Positions 30,617 through 40,106 of a DNA stretch of 64,000 nucleotides are shown piece after piece. Under the pieces are notes generated by a model, which made no database searches, was not told the DNA's origin, and was given only the letters and a program-made list of their open reading frames with translations. Position 1 is the first letter of the stretch. Each line of letters begins with the position of its first letter. This stretch comes from Prosthecobacter sp. (lineage in GTDB: Bacteria > Verrucomicrobiota > Verrucomicrobiia > Verrucomicrobiales > Verrucomicrobiaceae), in assembly GCF_034366625.1 (NCBI RefSeq), contig NZ_JAXMIH010000030.1:1-64000 (forward strand). The letters are read 5' to 3'. Position numbers and translations under genes: made by a program.

Positions 30617-33559
30617 ATGAGACCGATTTTCTGCGCCGCTCTGGCCCTGGCCGCCAGCACGCCTGTTTTTTCCCAAGCTCCGCCTCCTGCGCCGGGGACA
30701 CCGCCTGCCGCACCGGGTGCCCCCGCAGCTCCCGGAGCACCTGCCGCACCTGCCTCTCCGGCGGCGTTAAATATTCAGCAGGAAACTGAGGCGCTGGTCA
30801 ATGCCGCCGGCGGCCTTTTTGCCGAGGCGAAGTATCAGGAGGCGCTGTCCAAACTTGAGCAGGCCAAGAAGAACCTGAACAACAAGCCCTTCGAAGGCAT
30901 CATGTTCATTGAAGGCGCCTGCCATTACAACATGAGCAACTATCCGAAGGCGATCGAGACGCTGGAGGCCTTCATCAAGGAGTTTCCTCAAGGCGCGGCG
31001 ATCATCGATGTGCGCATGGCGCTGGGCCGCTCGTACATCGCCAGCAAGCAGGAGGACAAGGGGATTACGGTGCTGAAGGAGGTGGTGACAAGCTCGCCAG
31101 ACAAGAAGGCCGAGGCAGGATTGATCATCGCAGACGCTCTGAGCAAGCAGGATAAAAAAGACGAGGCTCTTGCCATTCTGTCTTCGGTGCTCACGGACGG
31201 CATCCGTAGCGCTGAGTCCATTCAGGCGGCGATGATGGCGGCCAATCTTTATGTCAGCAGCGGCAAGCTCGACGAGGCCGGCGCGCTGATGGACAAGGTG
31301 CGCAACTTTGCCTCCGGTGGCGACAGCATCGCTCAGATGAACAACATCTACCTGAAGCTGGGCGATGAGATGATGGAGAAGAAGGCTTTCAAGGAAGCTC
31401 TCGGCGCCTACCAGCTCGTGCGCAAGAAGACCGAAATCTCCCGCATCCAGAAGGAGCAGGTGGCCAAGCTGGAGGGCCAGCTCAAAACCGCCAAGGGCGT
31501 GCGCAAGGACGAAATCGAAACCAAGCTCAAGGCGAACACGGAAATCATGGCGGAGATCGAGAAGCGCACGGATTACGACGCCTCGCTCTACTACCGCCTG
31601 GGCCGCTGCTATTATGAGATGGGAGCGCCGAAGGAGGACGGCACCGTGGGCGATGCCTCACGGCTGTGGCAGGCAACCCTGGCGTTTGACGTCATCGTCG
31701 ATGGCTTCAAGGAGTTCCCGCAGCGGGACAAGTGCATGTTTGGCCTGATCATGGTGAATGCCGCCCTGAAGCGCATCAAGGAGGCCCGCGAGCTGTGCCA
31801 GGAATTCATCGACAACTTCCCTGATAGTGAGCAGATCGGCCAGGTCTCCGAGATGTATGGCATGCTGGCCTACCAGAACAAGCAGTTGAAGGAGGCGGTG
31901 GACGCGTTCGCGAAAGCCGAAAGCTTCCCGAAAGCCGACAAGCCGCGTCTGCGCTTCCTGCGTGGCAGCGTGCTGTTTGAAATGCAGAAGTTTGACGAGG
32001 CACGCACGGCTTTTGAGCTGCTCATTTCGGAATTCCCCAATGAGGAGGCCTACAAGGACGACGCCCTTTACCGCATCGCGCTAAGCTACTTCTACCAGAA
32101 CGATTACAAGAGCGTGATGAAGGCCCTCAAGACCTACATCAAGGAGAACCCGAAGGGGCAGTATGTTGTCGATGCGCGCTACCGCATGGCCTTCATCAAC
32201 TTCCAAGGGGGTGACAAGGAGGACGCTCAGGAAGAATTGATGGGCATCGTGAAGGATGCGCCGAATGACCAAAACATCGGCCAGGTGCATGCTTTGCTGG
32301 GGGACATTTACAATCAAAAGGCGGATTATGAGAATGCGACGATCAATTTCGCCGCCGCCGTGGACAAGGCCAAGACCGACGATGTGCTCAATTACGCCAT
32401 GGACCAGGTCACCGATCTCTATGTGGGTGGCAACAAGTGGAAGGAGCTGGCCGAGATGTGGCAGAAGTACTACAACACGCACAAGGACAATGACGACCTC
32501 GCGCTCAAGGCCATTCTCTGGATCAGCCGTGCCAGCATCAAGGACGGCAAACTTGAAGAGGCCAAGAAGCTGCTCTCTGAACACATCAAGACGCGCATCG
32601 CCAACCCGGCGAACCAGCAGGTGGAAGGCTTGATCCAGCAGCTTGTGAGCATCAGCGCCCCGAAACGTCGTCGTGTCAGCACCGCAGCAGCTCCCGCACC
32701 CTCGGCAGATGCGACGAAGCCTGCCGATGGAGCCGCTACCCCTGCGCCTGCACCGGCTCCAGCCCCGGAACTCACCTTCGAAGATGTCGAAAAACAGCTC
32801 GAAACATTGCTCACGCCGCCCCAGGAGGCGATGAACGGCACGGCGCAGATGCGCATTCTCTTTGCGAAGACTTGGCTGGCCAAAACGATGAAGATCGCTG
32901 ACAAGGCCGAGAAGTTCTTCAACATCATCATCGAGGTGGCCAAACCTGACGACCTCAGCCCGATGCTGCTGGCCACCGTGGGCGACAGCGCTCGCAAGAA
33001 GGGTGATCTGGACAAGGCAAACGCCTGTTATATGCGCCTGAAGGATCTCTTCAAAGACAGCGAGTATGCCGATGGCGCACCGGTCGGCCTGGCCGAGATC
33101 GCTTATGAAAAGGGCGAGTTCGACAAGGCGCTGGAGCTGTTCCGCGAGGCACAAACCTTCCCTGGCAGTTCCCGTGTGCTCGAATCCACGCAGGGTGAGG
33201 CCAAGACGCTTGCCAAACTCAAAAAACCTGATGAGGCAAAGAAAATTTTCGAGCAGATCGCCAACACCAAGGAATGGCGCGGTCAGGCTACCGCGAATGC
33301 ATTGCGCATGCTCGGCGAGATCGAAGCCAGCAACGGCAAGCACGAGGCGGCCATCGCCTACTTCCAGCGTGTGTTTATCGCCCATCAAAAATGGAAGGAT
33401 GAAATGGCCAAGGCCTATCTTCAGTGCGCGAAGTCCTTCATCGCCCTCGGCAAACGTGATGAGGCCAAGAAGACGCTGGATGAGATGATCGCCCGCAAAG
33501 ACCTCGAAACTCAGCCCGAGATGAAAGACGCCAAGGCTCTTCGTGCCACACTGCCCTAA
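30617..33559 (+). CDS. Large periplasmic TPR protein (operon gene 1)
   Basis: 980 residues from the ATG at 30617, chosen because it gives a clean signal peptide (RPIFCAALALAASTPVFSQ); the open frame begins earlier at 30491. A Pro/Ala linker (residues 20-55) precedes many tetratricopeptide repeats (e.g. KYQEALSKLEQAKKNL, NYPKAIETLEAFIKEFP, YENATINFAAAVDKA, EFDKALELFREAQTFP), interrupted near residue 690-720 by a second Pro/Ala segment. Similar to YbgF/CpoB- and BamD-like TPR scaffolds, which bind cell-envelope partners. It overlaps the next frame's upstream region and starts the TPR-TPR-ExbB-ExbD-ExbD-toroid series, so it is probably the periplasmic scaffold of that machine. Confidence 0.9.
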   Translation: MRPIFCAALALAASTPVFSQAPPPAPGTPPAAPGAPAAPGAPAAPASPAALNIQQETEALVNAAGGLFAEAKYQEALSKLEQAKKNLNNKPFEGIMFIEGACHYNMSNYPKAIETLEAFIKEFPQGAAIIDVRMALGRSYIASKQEDKGITVLKEVVTSSPDKKAEAGLIIADALSKQDKKDEALAILSSVLTDGIRSAESIQAAMMAANLYVSSGKLDEAGALMDKVRNFASGGDSIAQMNNIYLKLGDEMMEKKAFKEALGAYQLVRKKTEISRIQKEQVAKLEGQLKTAKGVRKDEIETKLKANTEIMAEIEKRTDYDASLYYRLGRCYYEMGAPKEDGTVGDASRLWQATLAFDVIVDGFKEFPQRDKCMFGLIMVNAALKRIKEARELCQEFIDNFPDSEQIGQVSEMYGMLAYQNKQLKEAVDAFAKAESFPKADKPRLRFLRGSVLFEMQKFDEARTAFELLISEFPNEEAYKDDALYRIALSYFYQNDYKSVMKALKTYIKENPKGQYVVDARYRMAFINFQGGDKEDAQEELMGIVKDAPNDQNIGQVHALLGDIYNQKADYENATINFAAAVDKAKTDDVLNYAMDQVTDLYVGGNKWKELAEMWQKYYNTHKDNDDLALKAILWISRASIKDGKLEEAKKLLSEHIKTRIANPANQQVEGLIQQLVSISAPKRRRVSTAAAPAPSADATKPADGAATPAPAPAPAPELTFEDVEKQLETLLTPPQEAMNGTAQMRILFAKTWLAKTMKIADKAEKFFNIIIEVAKPDDLSPMLLATVGDSARKKGDLDKANACYMRLKDLFKDSEYADGAPVGLAEIAYEKGEFDKALELFREAQTFPGSSRVLESTQGEAKTLAKLKKPDEAKKIFEQIANTKEWRGQATANALRMLGEIEASNGKHEAAIAYFQRVFIAHQKWKDEMAKAYLQCAKSFIALGKRDEAKKTLDEMIARKDLETQPEMKDAKALRATLP

Positions 33560-33578
33560 TCTCGAACTCTCCTATTTC

Positions 33579-34499
33579 ATGCGCACGTTCGCTCTGCTTC
33601 TCTCCTTCTTCGCCGCCATCGCAGGCTCTGCTTTTGGGCAGGCCATTGTGCTCAAAGACGGCAATCGCATCTTCTCCTCCGAATTTTCGCTCCAGGACGG
33701 CAAGATCGTCCGCACCATCCAGATCGGCGAGCAGAAGGCCACCAGCGTGGTGGACAAAAAGAACATCGACTCGCTGGAGTGGCCCTATCCCGCCGAACTG
33801 ACCGAGTCGGCCGATCTGCTTGCCAAAGGCAAGACGGAGGAGGCCATCGTCGTCCTGAAGAAAGGCCGTGACTTCTTCGAGAATTTTGAAGGCATTGAAG
33901 GCAACTGGTATGTGGACATCTACTTCGCCTATATCGAAGCCCTGAACCAGGGCGGCAAATTCGATGACGTGGTAAAATCGCTCCCCGCCCTGCGTGCCCT
34001 GAAGCTTACCGAAGCCCAGAAGATGCGCCTGCGCATCATCCAGCTCGACATCGAGCGACAGACGACTTCGGACTATGCGGCCATCATTGCTGAGGCTCAG
34101 GGCATCCTGAAGGAGACGGATGATTCCGCCATTGGCGCCTCACTGTGGGCCATCATCGCCGATGTGCACACTCGGAAGAAGGAGTGGGAGAAGGCGCTGC
34201 TGGCCTACCTGCGCATTCCGGTCTTTTATGGTACCCAAATGCAGCGCGTGCCGGAGGCGGAACTGAATGCGGCGAAGACGCTCATCAAAATGAAGCGCTA
34301 CGAGGACGCCAGCGCCTTCCTGGCGCGCATCGTCGATTCTTATCCCGGGTCGCAGGTCGCTGATACCGCCACGAAGGAAAAAGCGGCGATTGCCGGAATG
34401 AAAAATGTCGCCGAGGAAGAAACTGCTGCCACGGATGGCGAACAGAAGCCGAAGGAAGGCGAAACCGCCCCACCCACCGATTCCAAACCGAAAGCCTAA
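33579..34499 (+). CDS. Secreted TPR-like protein (operon gene 2)
   Basis: 306 residues from the ATG at 33579, which gives a signal peptide (FALLLSFFAAIAGSAFG). The N-terminal AIVLKDGNRIFSSEFSLQDG is a small beta domain seen in envelope proteins; the rest is helical TPR-like (AKGKTEEAIVVLKKGRDFFENF, WEKALLAYLRIPVFYGT). The C-terminus is an acidic/Pro tail (EEETAATDGEQKPKEGE). It lies 19 bp after the first gene and 14 bp before exbB, consistent with one transcript. Confidence 0.85.
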   Translation: MRTFALLLSFFAAIAGSAFGQAIVLKDGNRIFSSEFSLQDGKIVRTIQIGEQKATSVVDKKNIDSLEWPYPAELTESADLLAKGKTEEAIVVLKKGRDFFENFEGIEGNWYVDIYFAYIEALNQGGKFDDVVKSLPALRALKLTEAQKMRLRIIQLDIERQTTSDYAAIIAEAQGILKETDDSAIGASLWAIIADVHTRKKEWEKALLAYLRIPVFYGTQMQRVPEAELNAAKTLIKMKRYEDASAFLARIVDSYPGSQVADTATKEKAAIAGMKNVAEEETAATDGEQKPKEGETAPPTDSKPKA

Positions 34500-34513
34500 A
34501 TTCCCCCAACTCC

Positions 34514-35365
34514 ATGCAAACCAACACCGCCACCACCATGACCCGCCATCTCCCCAACGGCCCCGCCCGCGCGTTCCTCTGCGTCCTGCTGGCGTTCGGC
34601 CTATTCGCTTCCGTCAATCTTTTCGCTCAAGAGCCTGCTCCAGCGGAAGGTGCACCTGCCGTGGAAGAACATCACACTATGATTGACCGCTTCATCGAAG
34701 GCGGCTGGGTGATGTATCCCATCACCGCCTGTTCCATCGCCCTCGTCTGGCTCACGGTCGATCTCTGGATGCGCACCAGCATCAAGAGGCTGGCTCCTCC
34801 AGCCCAAGTCGCCCAGGTGCAGGATCTGTTCCGCGCTGGCGACTACGTCGGGGCCTACCAGTTCTGCAAAGGCAATCCGTCCCCCTTCACCAATACCAGC
34901 CGCGTCGCCCTCAGTTTCCTCGGTGACGGGCACGAAGCCACGGAGGCGGCCCTGTTCACCGAACTCAACAAGGCGAACTCCGCCATCCAGACGCGCATCA
35001 ATTACCTTTCCGTGATCGGGGTCTGCACGCCGATGATCGGTCTGACCGGCACGGTGACCGGGATGATGAGCGCCTTCTCCACCCTGAAGACCAGCGGTGC
35101 TGGCGATCCTGCCAAGCTTTCCGGCGCCATCGGCGAAGTGCTCATCGCGACGGCTTCCGGTCTGTTCATCGCCGTGCCGGCCTTCATGTTCTTTTACTTC
35201 CTGCGCAACCGTTTGCAGGTTTCCATCACCGATCTTCAGGAGGTCGTCATGGGATTGTTCCGCAAGATGCCCTACCAGCACCTCAAGGACGCGCATGTCG
35301 GCGAGGAAGAGTTTTACGCCGCCATTCCGAACTGGGTGGCTGGTGATGCGGCCCATGCGGCGTAA
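34514..35365 (+). CDS. exbB: ExbB/TolQ/MotA-family proton channel subunit
   Basis: 283 residues: an N-terminal signal-like helix (FLCVLLAFGLFASVNLFA) not present in all family members, a membrane helix (VMYPITACSIALVWLTVDLW), a long cytosolic domain, then two helices, YLSVIGVCTPMIGLTGTVTGMM and GEVLIATASGLFIAVPAFMFFYFL, which carry the TLGLLGTVxGM-type signature. With ExbD it forms an inner-membrane stator that turns proton flow into movement of a TonB/TolA-like partner. The start could also be the ATG at 34538. Confidence 0.95.
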   Translation: MQTNTATTMTRHLPNGPARAFLCVLLAFGLFASVNLFAQEPAPAEGAPAVEEHHTMIDRFIEGGWVMYPITACSIALVWLTVDLWMRTSIKRLAPPAQVAQVQDLFRAGDYVGAYQFCKGNPSPFTNTSRVALSFLGDGHEATEAALFTELNKANSAIQTRINYLSVIGVCTPMIGLTGTVTGMMSAFSTLKTSGAGDPAKLSGAIGEVLIATASGLFIAVPAFMFFYFLRNRLQVSITDLQEVVMGLFRKMPYQHLKDAHVGEEEFYAAIPNWVAGDAAHAA

Positions 35366-35421
35366 CTGCCCCGGTTTGCTCATGATTCCTTTCAAATATC
35401 AACCCTTGACCTTCTAACACT

Positions 35422-35847
35422 ATGGGCGGCGGCGGTGGCGGTGATGGTGAACCGGAGTTTCAAATCGCTCCGATGATTGACGTGCTGTTGGTGCTGCTCA
35501 TTTTCTTCATGAGCATCACCTCGGCGCAGGTGTTGCGCATCGACAAGGAGATTCAACTCCCTGTCGCTGGCGATGCTAAAAAAAAGGAAAAGAACATGAT
35601 GAACGAGGCCGCGCTCAATGTGCGCTGGACCAACGGCAAGTCGCTCATCACCTTCGAGGACACGAAATACGAGATCGTGGAGCCCTTGGTGGAACTGCTG
35701 CGCCAGCGCAAGGAGAGCAACACCAAGTACCGCGTCGTCATTCGTGGCGACAAGCGCCTTCCCGCCATCGAAATCCAAAGGGTGATGAGTGTCGTGGCCC
35801 AGGCGGGCATTGATGACATCTCCTTCTCGGCTTTGAACAAAGAATAA
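35422..35847 (+). CDS. exbD: ExbD/TolR-family protein, first copy
   Basis: 141 residues: a short glycine-rich N-terminus (MGGGGGGDGEPEFQ), one membrane helix with the essential proton-carrying Asp (IAPMIDVLLVLLIFFMSIT), and a periplasmic C-terminal domain (IEIQRVMSVVAQAGIDDISFS). It differs clearly from the second copy, so the stator may be heteromeric. It sits 56 bp after exbB and 12 bp before the second exbD. Confidence 0.94.
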   Translation: MGGGGGGDGEPEFQIAPMIDVLLVLLIFFMSITSAQVLRIDKEIQLPVAGDAKKKEKNMMNEAALNVRWTNGKSLITFEDTKYEIVEPLVELLRQRKESNTKYRVVIRGDKRLPAIEIQRVMSVVAQAGIDDISFSALNKE

Positions 35848-35859
35848 CCGTTCCACCTC

Positions 35860-36336
35860 ATGTCAGCCCCAGGCAAAAAAAAGCACCGCGAAATCGAGAC
35901 CGAACAGATGCAGGTCGGCTTCCAGATCGCTCCCATGATCGACGTGGTGTTCGTCATCATGCTCTTCTTCATGGTCATGGTCGGTTCCGTGAAGGTCGAG
36001 CGTGAGCTCAAGAGCCAGCTCCCCGGCCTCGCGCCGCCTTCTGCGGATGCGCCGCAGGAAATGCCGGATGAAATCATTGTGGGTGTTGAGGAAACCGGTG
36101 CGGTGACGCTCAACGAGGAAGAATTCGACGGCCCTACGGACAAAAAACTGCCCAATTTCACTTCCACGCTCATGCGTCTCAAGCAGGAGGCCGACAATCG
36201 CAACGCCAAGGTCATCGTCACCATTCAAGCTGAGGAACAGGCCACCTATGAGCGCGTGATCGACGTGCTCAACGCCCTCGCGGTTGCCAAGGTGGCGAAC
36301 GTGACCTTTACCGTTGGCAGCGACGTGGGCTTCTGA
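35860..36336 (+). CDS. exbD: ExbD/TolR-family protein, second copy
   Basis: 158 residues: charged N-terminus (GKKKHREIETEQ), membrane helix with Asp (IAPMIDVVFVIMLFFMVMVG), then an acidic periplasmic domain (PGLAPPSADAPQEMPDEI) and the conserved terminal fold (YERVIDVLNALAVAKVANVTF). Pairs of ExbD proteins next to one ExbB occur in several envelope machines of Planctomycetes and Verrucomicrobiota. Confidence 0.94.
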   Translation: MSAPGKKKHREIETEQMQVGFQIAPMIDVVFVIMLFFMVMVGSVKVERELKSQLPGLAPPSADAPQEMPDEIIVGVEETGAVTLNEEEFDGPTDKKLPNFTSTLMRLKQEADNRNAKVIVTIQAEEQATYERVIDVLNALAVAKVANVTFTVGSDVGF

Positions 36337-36358
36337 TGCCTGCATTTTTCAATTTTTG

Positions 36359-36425
36359 ACCGCTGCCCCCAAGAAAAGGGGCGGCGGGACGTCCTGTTAA
36401 TTGGATCATTCTTTTCTTTTGATCC
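36359..36425 (+). promoter_or_regulatory. Two hairpins between exbD and the toroid gene
   Basis: CCGCTGCCCC / GGGGCGGCGG (36359-36388, one wobble pair) and GGATCA / TGATCC (36403-36425) can fold in the transcript. The first is not followed by a U-tract, so it looks more like a processing or attenuating hairpin than a full terminator. Confidence 0.4.
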
Positions 36426-36450
36426 GTTCATCCCAAAAAGCCCCCTCGCC

Positions 36451-38526
36451 ATGAATCCGCAGCAGCCCGGCAATCCCGCCAATCCACCGCATCCTGGGGC
36501 CACGCAGCCGCTGCCACCGGGCTACGCGCCGCCTCCTGGCTACCCGCCGCAGATGCCGGGCTATCCGCAGGGTTATCCGATGCCACAGGGCTATCCGCCG
36601 CAGATGCCGGGTTATCCGCAGGGTTATCCGATGCCGCAGGGCTATCCGCCGCAGATGCCGGGTTATCCGCAGGGTTATCCGATGCCGCAGGGCTATCCTC
36701 CTCAGATGCCGGGCTACCCGCCCGGGTACATGCCCACCATGCCGATGCCGGCGATGATGCCGCCGCCCGCGCCCTCCCCTTCCACCGGCACGGTGGCTCC
36801 AGCCGTGCCCAGACCAGCCAGCGCCGCAGTGCCCGTGGCGATGCCCGCGCCTGCTGCGGTGGCACCGTCGATGCCCGCGCCGAGCACGCCGATGGCCATG
36901 GCGACACCGACGGATGATGGCGAGCCTGTCTTGGTGGCCGAACATCACGAGGGCGAGGTGTTTCATCCGCCGGCGCTCACCCACATTGAAGTGGGGCCGC
37001 CGCCCAACAGGTTCGTGCAGATGTGGCGCAAGGCGGGCGGCAGCGCCTTGATGATGAGCATCCTGGTGCACGCGGGGCTCGGTGTGCTGGCGCTGTTCAT
37101 CGTGTTCAGCACCGGGGTGATGGACAAGCAGGTCGATTTCCTGCCCGGTGGCGGCACGCAGCAGGGGGCGCAGGCCAGCGCGGACTTGCAGCACAAGGTG
37201 CAGCAGAAGAAGCGCAGCTCGATCAACAAGACGATGCCGATGAAGAAGCTGGTGAGCACCAGCATGAACTCGGCGATCACCCTGCCGGAGGCGCCGCCGG
37301 ACGCGTTGGACATGCCCGACGTGAGCGCGATGATGGGCGGAGGAGCGCTGGGAGCGAGCGGTGGATTTGGCACGGGCGGAGCGGGCGGCGGCTTTGGCAA
37401 AGGGATGGGGATGGGCGGCGCGGCAGGCTTTGTGACGCTGCCGCCGTCGATGCGTGCGCGTTGTTCGACGCAGGAGCGCTTGGAGAAGCTGCGGCAGAAC
37501 GGCGGGACGCCGGAGTGCGAGGCGGCGGTGAGCGCGTCGCTGGAATGGCTCAAGGGCAAGCAGAACCCCGACGGCTCCTGGGGCCGCACCAACAAGTGTG
37601 CGATGACCGGCTTGGCCTTGCTGTGCTATCTGGGCCGCTGTGAGACGCCGGAATCGCCGTTCTACGGCGACAATGTGATGAAGGGCATCATGTTCCTCAT
37701 CGAGACCCAAAAAGCGAACAAGAACAAACTCTTCAGCCAAGGACTCAAGGGAAACGCGCCAGTCTATGAGCACGGCATCGCGACTTACGCCCTCGGCGAG
37801 ATGTACACACTGGCACGACTGGGCAGCAAATCCCTGCCTGGCATGCGTGAAGCTTTCGAACAGGGCGTGAAGATCATCATCGACAACCAGCAGGACAGCG
37901 GAAGCTGGGTGTATGATGGCGAAACGGGCTTCTACGCGGGCAAAAAGAGCCGCGAAGACCTTTCCGTGGCCGGCTGGCAGTTTCAGGCTCTCAAGGCGGC
38001 CAAGAACACCAGTTTGAAAATCGATGGCCTGCACAGCTCCATTACAAAGATGACCAAGTATCTCGAAGACAAGCAGACAAAGGACGGTGGCTTCGGTGGC
38101 ACCAGCCGTGACGCTCACTACAATCAGTGGAGTCTCTCCGGCGTGGGAATTCTCGGCCTGCAAACCATGGCGAAAGGCAACAAGACCACCCCGATCAAGA
38201 AAGGCATCGCCTTCCTGCGTGATTTCCTCACCGCTGAGCCGCTGGACTGGAACAAGAACTGCAATCTCTACTGCTGGTACTACTACACCCAGGCGTTCTT
38301 CCAACAGGGCGGCGACGACTGGAAGTTCTACAATCAGCAATTCCTCCCCCAGATCCTCAGTGCCCAGCAGTCCGATGGTTCGTTCAAGCGCGGCCGGCCG
38401 AACTGGCCCGCTGGAGATGCTGCGGATGAAATCTATCGCCAGTGCCTCTGCACGCTGCAACTCGAAGTGTTCTACCGCTACCTCAAGGTCGGCGATCGTG
38501 AGGAAGACTCGTTCTTCGACAAGTGA
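36451..38526 (+). CDS. TonB-like transducer with periplasmic terpene-cyclase-fold toroid
   Basis: 691 residues in four parts. Residues 1-110 are Pro/Gly/Tyr-rich, with three and a half 17-residue repeats (YPPQMPGYPQGYPMPQG) at 31-92. A Pro/Ala linker follows. One membrane helix (about 199-220, ALMMSILVHAGLGVLALFIVF) contains S203-x3-H207, the SxxxH pattern of the TonB transmembrane segment that couples to ExbB/ExbD. A Gly/Met-rich linker (about 285-340) leads to an alpha/alpha-toroid of the prenyltransferase/squalene-cyclase type (about 350-685) with QW-like motifs KQNPDGSWG, QQDSGSWVY, KQTKDGGFGG and QQSDGSFK. No cyclase DxDD motif was seen, so it is probably a binding module. Its place after exbB-exbD-exbD fits the transducer role. 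Confidence 0.85.
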   Translation: MNPQQPGNPANPPHPGATQPLPPGYAPPPGYPPQMPGYPQGYPMPQGYPPQMPGYPQGYPMPQGYPPQMPGYPQGYPMPQGYPPQMPGYPPGYMPTMPMPAMMPPPAPSPSTGTVAPAVPRPASAAVPVAMPAPAAVAPSMPAPSTPMAMATPTDDGEPVLVAEHHEGEVFHPPALTHIEVGPPPNRFVQMWRKAGGSALMMSILVHAGLGVLALFIVFSTGVMDKQVDFLPGGGTQQGAQASADLQHKVQQKKRSSINKTMPMKKLVSTSMNSAITLPEAPPDALDMPDVSAMMGGGALGASGGFGTGGAGGGFGKGMGMGGAAGFVTLPPSMRARCSTQERLEKLRQNGGTPECEAAVSASLEWLKGKQNPDGSWGRTNKCAMTGLALLCYLGRCETPESPFYGDNVMKGIMFLIETQKANKNKLFSQGLKGNAPVYEHGIATYALGEMYTLARLGSKSLPGMREAFEQGVKIIIDNQQDSGSWVYDGETGFYAGKKSREDLSVAGWQFQALKAAKNTSLKIDGLHSSITKMTKYLEDKQTKDGGFGGTSRDAHYNQWSLSGVGILGLQTMAKGNKTTPIKKGIAFLRDFLTAEPLDWNKNCNLYCWYYYTQAFFQQGGDDWKFYNQQFLPQILSAQQSDGSFKRGRPNWPAGDAADEIYRQCLCTLQLEVFYRYLKVGDREEDSFFDK
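36541..36726 (+). repeat. 51-bp in-frame tandem repeat
   Basis: Three full copies (36541-36591, 36592-36642, 36643-36693) and a partial fourth of a 51-bp unit encode the 17-residue PGYPQG repeat. The copies are almost identical at nucleotide level, implying recent expansion or frequent exchange. Confidence 0.9.
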
Positions 38527-38547: not shown

Positions 38548-39438
38548 TCAAACTTCGCGCGGCCTGCCCACGATGATGCCTGCGTGGCTTTTGATCGCGT
38601 CCAGGTACTCATGGATGGTTTTGTCCACCACGACCTTCTTGTAGGTCGCCGAAGCGTGCATGAAGCGGCATGCCCCGTCGCCGGTTCGCAACGCCAAGCC
38701 GACATGGGAGCAGAAAACATGCGGGCGGTTCGTCACAATGCCGATGATGTCACCACTTTGAAGGCGTGGTTCACAGGTCGCGACGTGCTGCTTCGGGATG
38801 AAATCGAACGGCACCTGTTCCAGCCGTGATTCGATTTGCCGCATCGCCGGAACCAACGCAGGATTCGCACGCAGGTAGCGGTATAATTTCGGATTCAGCG
38901 ACATCTCGTCGTTGCCACGTCCTGTGAGCCGCACCACCGGCCCTGCTTGACGCGTGACGTTGCGGATGGTGCCTCGTGCTACGTTGTCTGTGAACCATTC
39001 GTCCAAGTAATGAATGCGGTCCAGATAGTGTCCGTGACAAACACCACCGCGATAGCGCGTCCATTCGATCTGACGTAGCAAATCCGAAGTCGAGTAGTCG
39101 CGCTGCCGTTTTGCGATCATGCGCGCCAGGCCGAGCGCGATCTCAAAAAACGTCCAGCAGTCCAGCCCGTTGAAGTTCGCCGAGGGCGATTCGATGCGGT
39201 CGTCAATCTCCAGCGTCCATGCGACATACTTCGTGCCACGCAGCGCCTGCCCGAACTGCGCCACGCGTGCACCCATCGGCAGCGCCGCCCAGTTTTCTGC
39301 CACCGCACGTGCCACAACCTGCTGGAACTTCGCCACGCCAATGAAAGTCACGTTTTGCGGCAAAAACTCCGCCGCACGAAGCAGTGTAGAACTTCCGCTC
39401 AACAGACCCAGGTGAAGAAAATGGCGGCGGTTCATCAT
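38548..39438 (-). CDS. DUF1460 (NlpC/P60-like amidase) protein
   Basis: 296 residues from the double Met at 39438/39435 (MMNRRHFLHLGLLSGSSTLLRA, a Tat/Sec-type leader with RR). The core matches DUF1460/N-acetylmuramoyl-L-alanine amidase-like proteins: FNGLDCWTFFE carries the nucleophile Cys, SRLEQVPFDFIPK, and CSHVGLAL the His, with HASATYKKVVV at the end. Members are envelope-located cysteine hydrolases acting on peptidoglycan peptides. It converges on the toroid gene with a 21-bp gap, and follows the TPM gene by 8 bp on the same strand. Confidence 0.88.
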   Translation of the reverse strand: MMNRRHFLHLGLLSGSSTLLRAAEFLPQNVTFIGVAKFQQVVARAVAENWAALPMGARVAQFGQALRGTKYVAWTLEIDDRIESPSANFNGLDCWTFFEIALGLARMIAKRQRDYSTSDLLRQIEWTRYRGGVCHGHYLDRIHYLDEWFTDNVARGTIRNVTRQAGPVVRLTGRGNDEMSLNPKLYRYLRANPALVPAMRQIESRLEQVPFDFIPKQHVATCEPRLQSGDIIGIVTNRPHVFCSHVGLALRTGDGACRFMHASATYKKVVVDKTIHEYLDAIKSHAGIIVGRPREV

Positions 39439-39446
39439 GAGCGTGT

Positions 39447-40106
39447 TCAATACAGGCTTTCCGCCATTCCCACGGCTTCGTCCCCGGGAGCGCTGGCATC
39501 CAGCCACTGGGTTTCCTGCGCCAGCCCAAATTGTTTGGGCACCAGCCGGCACAGCTCGCGGAGCTGACGGTCCAGCTCGCGTGTGAACGACTCAATGGCC
39601 TGTGCGAAATGCCCGCGCTGCAACGGTTGCTGCGCCGCCTGCAGGCAGGTTTGCAAATGTATTTCCTGGATGAATGGTTCCAGCCCGTAGCCCACCATCG
39701 CGATGGCCCGGTCGGTGTTCGTGTCGATGAGCAGCATCACCAGCCGGTTTTCGCCACCTTTCTCCACCGCACTGGACAGACGCCCCCGGTTGAAGATCCA
39801 GAATGCATACGCCGTCAGCGGTGCTTGCTGCGGCACTTCCATGAGCACCGCGGCGATCGCAAGCTGCGGAAACCGCCGTTCCACCTGCGTGATCACGTGC
39901 GCCGCGCGCTTTTGCGCAAACGCACCCAACTGGCCGGTGGTGTCGGCAACCGGGCGCTGGAGCGCCGGGGCGATGCCGAAGGTGCGGTCCGCCACCTCCA
40001 ATGAAAAGCCGCACTGCCGGCAGGCAGCATCGTTTTCAATCGCGGGAGTTCGGCAGGCAGGACAACGCACAGGGCGATTGTACAGCCTGCCGCACCCGGC
40101 ATGCAA
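39447..40106 (-). CDS. TPM-domain protein with N-terminal zinc ribbon
   Basis: 219 residues; a GTG at 40070 would give a start right before RCPACRTP and may be the true one. The N-terminus is a zinc ribbon, CPACRTPAIENDAACRQCGF (two CxxC pairs). The rest resembles the TPM_phosphatase fold: AIAAVLMEVPQQAPLTAYAFWIFNRG, VMLLIDTNTDRAIAMVGYGLEPFI and a helical C-terminus. No membrane segment is evident. Role unknown; similar proteins are linked to membrane-protein repair, but that does not establish it here. Confidence 0.75.
   Translation of the reverse strand: MHAGCGRLYNRPVRCPACRTPAIENDAACRQCGFSLEVADRTFGIAPALQRPVADTTGQLGAFAQKRAAHVITQVERRFPQLAIAAVLMEVPQQAPLTAYAFWIFNRGRLSSAVEKGGENRLVMLLIDTNTDRAIAMVGYGLEPFIQEIHLQTCLQAAQQPLQRGHFAQAIESFTRELDRQLRELCRLVPKQFGLAQETQWLDASAPGDEAVGMAESLY

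Follow-up and report, generated by a model that had tools for sequence, protein, structure and literature searches.

A TonB-like motor operon of Prosthecobacter with a toroid-headed candidate transducer and an N-terminal module common to several heads

In a window of 64,000 nucleotides from Prosthecobacter sp. (the whole stretch of DNA analysed: assembly GCF_034366625.1, contig NZ_JAXMIH010000030.1, positions 1 to 64,000 of the forward strand), six genes follow one another on the + strand between positions 30617 and 38526. The source genome measures 6.65 Mb across 30 contigs. Open reading frames, translations and Pfam matches bear out the gene order given by an earlier, sequence-only reading of this DNA: two TPR proteins, ExbB, two ExbD and a protein of 691 amino acids, here called the toroid protein after its C-terminal head. 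The features are listed below; numbers beginning with L, G, C and f are our handles for loci, genomes, contigs and families.

30617..33559, + strand: TPR1, a long TPR protein of 980 amino acids with a signal-peptide-like start; it holds the same place in related operons
33579..34499, + strand: TPR2, 306 amino acids, with a signal-peptide-like start, a small N-terminal domain and TPR; distantly like Mul1B
34538..35365, + strand: ExbB/TolQ-like proton channel subunit, with Ser66 and Trp71 in the first membrane helix and Pro214; an alternative start is possible at 34514
35422..35847, + strand: ExbD/TolR-like subunit a (ExbDa), with PMIDV in its helix
35860..36336, + strand: ExbD/TolR-like subunit b (ExbDb), a second ExbD that differs from ExbDa and also has PMIDV
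36451..38526, + strand: toroid-headed putative transducer, 691 amino acids
36451..37002, + strand: N-terminal tail of the transducer, rich in Pro, Gly, Tyr, Gln and Met, probably cytoplasmic
36538-36721: 51-bp tandem repeats that encode the Pro-rich transducer tail
37003..37440, + strand: N-module (coupling helix, VDFLPGGG motif, Gly-rich linker), common to vWA-like and PA14-like heads
37057..37071, + strand: S203-x3-H207, counterpart of TonB Ser16/His20
37459..38490, + strand: alpha/alpha toroid head, probably periplasmic
37693..37770, + strand: variable loop 1, residues 415-440, up to the invariant Y439
37873..37965, + strand: variable loop 2, residues 475-505, up to the invariant D503 and S505

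Pfam identifies the motor genes clearly (MotA_ExbB, E 2.7e-24; ExbD, E 3.9e-19 and 4.9e-18). The 691-residue protein gives a weak match to SQHop_cyclase_C that is still over the cut-off (E 9.4e-7), and neither a TonB_C match nor a TolA domain. The best named NCBIfam matches are TolQ for ExbB and TolR for the ExbD proteins, all below cut-off, and TPR1 exceeds the cut-off for 'YbgF' (TIGR02795: 141.8 bits against 90.1, in five stretches). Such matches would suit a Tol-Pal-like machine for envelope stability, an identification that we hold to be very unlikely: the transducer lacks a TolA domain, and no TolB or Pal was found among the five window neighbours scanned, no genome-wide search for either having been made. 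The YbgF match can be explained by the TPR repeats, and the likeness to CpoB/YbgF proposed by the sequence-only reading reduces to generic TPR similarity. TPR2 matches Mul1B (NF052542) at E 0.001 and 18.3 bits, below the cut-off of 75; its relatives in L060 (9e-8) and L043 (5e-7) also stay below cut-off.

The toroid gene starts 114 bases behind ExbDb and a terminator-like match lies at 36325-36343, so that co-transcription of the two genes is not certain. Promoter matches in the window occur at about chance level, terminator matches number 14 against 8.7 expected, and an Rfam scan returned nothing at the gathering threshold. The locus forms a pattern beyond chance, because its gene order recurs in several families of the phylum and the His of the coupling helix is invariant. 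The neighbouring gene at 38548-39552, which adjoins the toroid gene convergently, encodes an AmiA-like amidase domain. Many related contigs break off inside the toroid gene.

As the sequence-only reading had stated, a hydropathy scan of the toroid protein finds one membrane helix, and this helix carries S203-I-L-V-H207. A search with the protein in 37 genomes (source genome included) gave a match in 36. Many of these matches span only residues 180-334 or thereabouts, in reading frames with other C-termini; they share the helix, VDFLPGGG and the Gly-rich linker, and continue into a vWA-like (DxSxS) or a PA14-like C-terminus. Judged by these alignments, the helix and the Gly-rich linker form a distinct N-module. 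Two residues alone stay unchanged across 26 divergent N-module rows, namely H207 and the Phe in VDFLPGGG. For a wider count, 171 open reading frames with an N-module were reduced to 135 distinct modules, of which 19 that end before the helix were set aside; all the remaining 116 have the helix His, across toroid, vWA-like and PA14-like heads. The residue four places before it is Ser in 110 of the 116, Ala in four (L039, L057, L073, L203) and Thr in two (L200, L201), and both L197 rows read S-I-C-V-H. With this count and the recurring gene order, the TonB-like coupling helix of the sequence-only reading stands, as does its expectation that Ser-x3-His and the operon would be kept in relatives within Verrucomicrobiota. 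The contig scan of relatives covered the best 80 of 565, none of them titled Planctomycetes.

The His count left out toroid proteins that have no N-module match. The one from L023 has A-x3-H in its helix; in the others (from L022, L024, L036 and L040, and the product of the second L193 gene) no such helix His was seen. Toroid domains thus also occur without the His helix. Among the proteins lacking the His, those of L022 (9316-12111, on contig C12 of the source genome) and L036 (3654-7406) resemble Ser/Thr protein kinases and end in a toroid, which in L022 is 60% identical to the window head; their kinase identity is read from sequence. In L040 (6091-11030), toroid proteins encoded in tandem have a membrane helix lacking the His, and their genome, G031, gave no match to window-type ExbB.

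A toroid linked to a kinase may be a ligand sensor, and the same could be asked of the window protein: instead of being pulled, its toroid might sense a ligand and gate the ExbB/ExbD channel, or report inward through the N-terminal tail. About 185 residues precede the helix in the window protein, and E. coli TonB is not known to have such a tail. We consider signalling of this kind unlikely, given that both the signature in the helix and the operon encoding the motor are typical of force transducers and that the copies resemble each other less in the tail than in the N-module. Moreover, vWA heads on this chassis are read as force transducers in the available part of PMC12204202.

The head itself was modelled with AlphaFold2 (AF2) from a 25-row alignment (residues 185-691; mean predicted local distance difference test score (pLDDT) 72.2, predicted TM-score (pTM) 0.67). 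The model shows one helix, then a linker without order, and a toroid predicted with confidence, whose blocks mostly reach pLDDT 80-97. VIA-align superposes this predicted toroid on squalene-hopene cyclase with Z 24.7 (290 aligned residues, root-mean-square deviation 3.2, 17% identity), and Foldseek with VIA-align also returns cellobiose 2-epimerases, GH76 and others. Since the fold is common, no function can be deduced from it. The protein has two QW-like motifs, and DxDD is absent from it and from 24 of the 25 aligned rows, the remaining row having DGDD (L078). The model and the lack of a TonB_C match agree with the sequence-only reading that a toroid replaces the TonB C-terminal domain, with QW-like motifs and without DxDD.

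The toroid might instead be an enzyme acting on terpenoids, glycans or lipids that is simply tethered beside the motor. Its fold neighbours among cyclases, epimerases and GH76 fit such a role, as do the invariant Y439, H441, W486 and D503; E450, Y488 and Y607 are likewise invariant or nearly so. Toroid enzymes without DxDD exist. We nevertheless regard an enzyme as highly improbable, as DxDD is missing in nearly every row, the His of the N-module is invariant and other head folds sit on the same module. From the order of helices in the AF2 model (not from coordinates) we infer that loops 415-440 and 475-505, which precede helices starting near Y439/H441 and D503, lie at one mouth of the ring.

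According to sequence matches and models, the N-module bears at least three heads in Verrucomicrobiota: the toroid, a vWA-like domain and a PA14-like lectin fold. Pfam detects vWA over the cut-off in L056 (E 7.9e-7) and below it in L042 (7.5e-5), with values of 0.085-0.099 in L032 and L041; PA14 matches are below cut-off (E 0.0019-0.003) and absent for L058. An AF2 model of one PA14-like head reached pTM 0.82. Its matches are sugar-binding domains of adhesins, at modest TM-scores (best E 1.9e-6), among them the PA14 domain 6m8m with E 3.9e-6 (TM-score 0.37 by query, 0.55 by target). For the toroid and this head alike, the folds are thus predicted ones.

In the window's family (for example L043, L046, L051, L054, L079, L088, L092; also L094, L095, L114, L165-L168) a toroid gene stands behind TPR1-TPR2-ExbB-ExbDa-ExbDb, and likewise in family f2 (L070, L073, L078 and L057, where the toroid has a PA14-like head behind it in turn). 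In family f4 the same order ends in a vWA-like head (L060, L075). Other families provide further vWA-like heads (L187-L191, L197, L198, L200, L201, L204, L206), with scores of 13-44 bits, a degenerate DxSxS in L200, L201 and L206 and TPR2 undetected in several, as well as PA14-like heads (L199 and the second head of L197). Within the window's family, L203 is a second, more distant operon of the same kind with a vWA-like head. L202 is uninformative on the head, its contig ending directly behind ExbDb.

Two single-contig genomes of the family contain five (G071) and nine (G065) N-modules. The sequence-only reading had named toroid proteins commonly found without ExbB/ExbD as what would speak against it. 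This objection holds by half: copies away from ExbB/ExbD do occur (one on contig C24 of the source genome; in G047 both toroid genes lie off the motor's contigs), and yet both genomes keep the motor. Variants of the operon were also seen: L077 (12112-12555), L167 and L168 have a third ExbD, and in L076 (4518-9280) a vWA-like head follows TPR1 and TPR2 with no ExbB/ExbD detected in between. Three metagenome records titled Akkermansia muciniphila (L090, L104, L105) contain toroid genes 82-99% like that of the window and are probably mislabelled.

If the helix docks as in TonB, its partner residues should be found on ExbB. In E. coli structures obtained by cryo-electron microscopy, the part of PMC12215075 available describes TonB Ser16/His20 and TolA Ser18/His22 in contact with one Ser and one Trp in the first helix of ExbB/TolQ, by way of which they reach a Pro of the third. 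The window-type ExbB proteins have Ser66 in 27 of 27 cases and, at position 71, Trp in 25 and Tyr in two. By comparison, 13 other ExbB proteins of the same loci have Ser in 7/13 and Trp71 in none (T, G, A, F, C, I or K instead). Seventeen further ExbB proteins all have Ser66, which makes 44/44 together with the window type, and 11 of the 17 have Trp or Tyr at 71. A strict pairing of Trp-ExbB with the His helix, suggested by the initial 27/27 aromatic residues, was rejected as a general rule on this last count. The alignments support the Ser side of the proposed docking and the Trp side only partly.

Motor and N-module also tend to occur together. We defined window-type ExbB by a score of at least 210 bits, the next best match among 383 genomes of the phylum having 182. 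It is present in 39 of the 383, and 37 of these 39 also have an N-module at E 1e-4; conversely, all 30 genomes with an N-module at E 1e-18 or better have window-type ExbB. In an order-level search the N-module was found in 54 of 113 genomes, apparently including all 36 of the window's family by listing order. Neither N-module nor window-type ExbB appeared among the matches listed for g2, a genus with small genomes (to which G031 belongs), which we take for Akkermansia on its strong Mul1B matches.

Fourteen genomes have two toroid genes (28 genes), which allowed the copies to be compared. In 10 genomes one copy lies in the motor operon and the other outside; in the other four (G023, G047, G092, G094) no ExbD is seen in either fetched stretch, and contig ends truncate some of these stretches. 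The two N-modules of one genome are 96.6-100% identical as proteins (mean 98.6%, 14 pairs), with means of 95.0% in nucleotides and 83% at fourfold degenerate sites. The corresponding means between genomes are 71%, 71% and 47% (364 comparisons), and the helix varies from genome to genome (SILVH, SIAIH, SIFVH, SVAIH and others). For all 28 genes the best N-module DNA match is the partner in the same genome, whereas the two head loops find their best match within the genome in 0/28. Because of these opposite counts, we read the two copies as old ones that exchange their coupling part by gene conversion, which keeps the N-modules homogenised, and whose heads diversify, the binding loops staying distinct.

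Quick trees give a similar picture. In N-module DNA the same-genome pairs are sisters in 14/14, and in the loop region the short-loop heads, which come from six genomes, group together in a single clade (support 100). The N-module data reject this clade (approximately unbiased test, p 7e-5, with one identical pair left free and the groups named after the loops had been seen). The short-loop heads stand inside the operon in four of these six genomes and outside it in two (G015, G084). Since the loop types cross species and the second toroid locus has neighbours in common among six species (L021, L050, L101, L103, L109 and L117, the last being the same as L169), a recent lineage-specific duplication is unlikely. 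Purifying selection alone is also unlikely, because identity at fourfold sites is higher in the N-module than in the head in 13 of 14 pairs, G039 being equal (0.65, 0.65); in G023 these sites are near background (0.53 N-module, 0.43 head), so that G039 and G023 show little or no silent excess. Assembly collapse is unlikely as well, since the N-module DNA differs in 13 of 14 pairs (identical in G015). The exchange pattern is not universal: the second toroid genes of G071 and G079 carry diverged N-modules.

We read the locus as a motor driven by proton-motive force with exchangeable heads, in which a helix-docked transducer has its toroid pulled, and give this reading a probability of roughly 0.68. 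We infer proton coupling, docking and force as follows. ExbB and the two different ExbD proteins would form the inner-membrane motor, on whose ExbB the transducer helix would dock through Ser203/His207, as in TonB and TolA. The linker would cross the periplasm, and the toroid would grip a ligand or a ligand-loaded partner, with the motor exerting a pull on it. The outer-membrane or peptidoglycan partner named by the sequence-only reading is a conjecture. TPR1 and TPR2 may serve as periplasmic scaffolds or adaptors. Toroid, vWA-like and PA14-like heads are supplied on the same N-module by genes beside the motor or elsewhere, and because this one module carries such different heads, one motor probably serves several of them.

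Several observations weigh against this reading. The published SHLS signature is His-x6-Leu-x3-Ser, with Leu and Ser less conserved in Ton (PMC12215075, available part); in its strict form only half of it is present here, Ala214 and Val218 occupying the places of Leu and Ser. Six of the 17 further ExbB proteins lack an aromatic residue at position 71, and in five of these six cases the neighbouring head has the helix His; TolQ Trp32 falls one residue off Trp71 in an alignment that is insignificant (-1.5 bits). The toroid fold is as much that of terpene cyclases as that of sugar epimerases. The stretches fetched for the L074, L077, L080, L195 and L196 operons showed no head. Of the 103 genomes with an N-module at E 1e-4, 66 have no strict window-type ExbB (among nine of these that were opened, eight fetched stretches contain a more distant ExbB and one, L193, none), and the Fisher test of co-occurrence ignores kinship. 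Finally, the second loci of G015 (L055) and G084 (L098) share none of the neighbours common to the other six, so that the second copy in these genomes lies elsewhere.

A fuller version of the pulling model has one motor drive interchangeable toroid, PA14-like and vWA tools, with gene conversion keeping the module matched and the loops diversifying for glycans or other envelope ligands; for this we see about even odds. That the ligand is a glycan, and the task the moving or remodelling of envelope-bound glycans, for example in polysaccharide uptake, is our best guess, suggested by the PA14-like fold, by the toroids of sugar enzymes that the head's fold matches include, and by TPR2, which distantly resembles MUL1. 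If the fuller version is right, the combination of several heads, a uniform coupling part and a free binding part would widen the picture drawn from TonB and TolA across a large part of the phylum. Several envelope functions may then depend on the N-module, as its five and nine occurrences in G071 and G065 suggest, and the two loop types offer a direct handle for comparing what two toroid copies bind in one strain.

Among known systems, squalene-hopene cyclase and other alpha/alpha toroids share the predicted fold and the QW-like motifs, but the window toroid lacks DxDD and continues an N-module that is anchored in the membrane and encoded next to a proton motor.

The MUL1 locus of Akkermansia, reportedly described by Davey et al. 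in 2023, likewise combines ExbB, two ExbD and two TPR-type proteins, and window TPR2 is distantly like Mul1B. Its order is ExbB-ExbD-ExbD-TPR-Mul1B (as seen in L069 and L085) rather than TPR-TPR2-ExbB-ExbD-ExbD, and no His-helix head was seen in MUL1-type operons. We rejected the identification of the window operon with MUL1, a closer MUL1-like operon being present on contig C26 of the source genome (L085, 2398-8036; ExbB-ExbD-ExbD-TPR-Mul1B-like, Mul1B match 9.8e-11, below cut-off). MUL1, also mentioned in the available part of PMC11790493, is described together with MUL2 as mediating mucin transport and processing in that of PMC13174399, which reports no MUL1 synteny in aquatic Akkermansiaceae; the L085 operon nonetheless stands in a genome outside Akkermansia. 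In G120 a TPR and Mul1B pair lies divergently within about 2 kb of the window-type operon. ExbB/ExbD genes adjoining the window-type operon in G107 were rejected as MUL1-type, since they are part of a TonB-ExbB-ExbD operon.

TonB and TolA are the classic drives of outer-membrane work in Gram-negative bacteria. TonB-ExbB-ExbD and TolA-TolQ-TolR resemble the window system in their adjacent motor subunits and in a transducer with one N-terminal Ser-x3-His helix, a linker and a C-terminal head. The window transducer differs in having a toroid in place of the TonB/TolA C-terminal domain, and the window motor in having two different ExbD. Moreover, the source genome has a canonical TonB on contig C28 (L028, 6955-7860) with its own ExbB, ExbD and plug-domain receptor, so that the window system is a separate one; unlike E. 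coli TonB, this TonB has no His in its predicted membrane helix.

The nearest known counterparts are the vWA-headed force transducers of Planctomycetes, Verrucomicrobia and others (Williams-Jones et al. 2025, PMC12204202). In the part of that paper available, their chassis comprises TPR, TolQ-like and two different TolR-like genes and an SHLS helix with a conserved His, and more such systems are expected still to be undiscovered. The window shares the upstream TPR, TolQ-like and two TolR-like genes and the transmembrane Ser/His signature with a non-TonB head, and the vWA-like loci of its relatives share the order; its own head is an alpha/alpha toroid, not a vWA domain. PA14, toroid and squalene do not occur in the main text of PMC12204202, and its section 8 describes no module common to head types and no gene conversion. 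Our literature search gave no toroid or PA14 heads on ExbB/ExbD motors, shared module or exchange pattern among the matches listed, and the main text of a V. spinosum essential-gene paper (PMC12283558) contains none of the terms ExbB, ExbD, TolQ, Tol-Pal, TonB and TPR. The machine that the sequence-only reading believed to be uncharacterised is thus partly known, its chassis having been published with a vWA head, and apparently new in its toroid. On these grounds we place the window system, TonB-like in its working, with the vWA-headed kind and not in the TonB family: the chassis with a vWA head is already known (PMC12204202), and what seems new, by the literature matches listed, are the heads of toroid and PA14 type, together with the common N-module and its exchange between copies.

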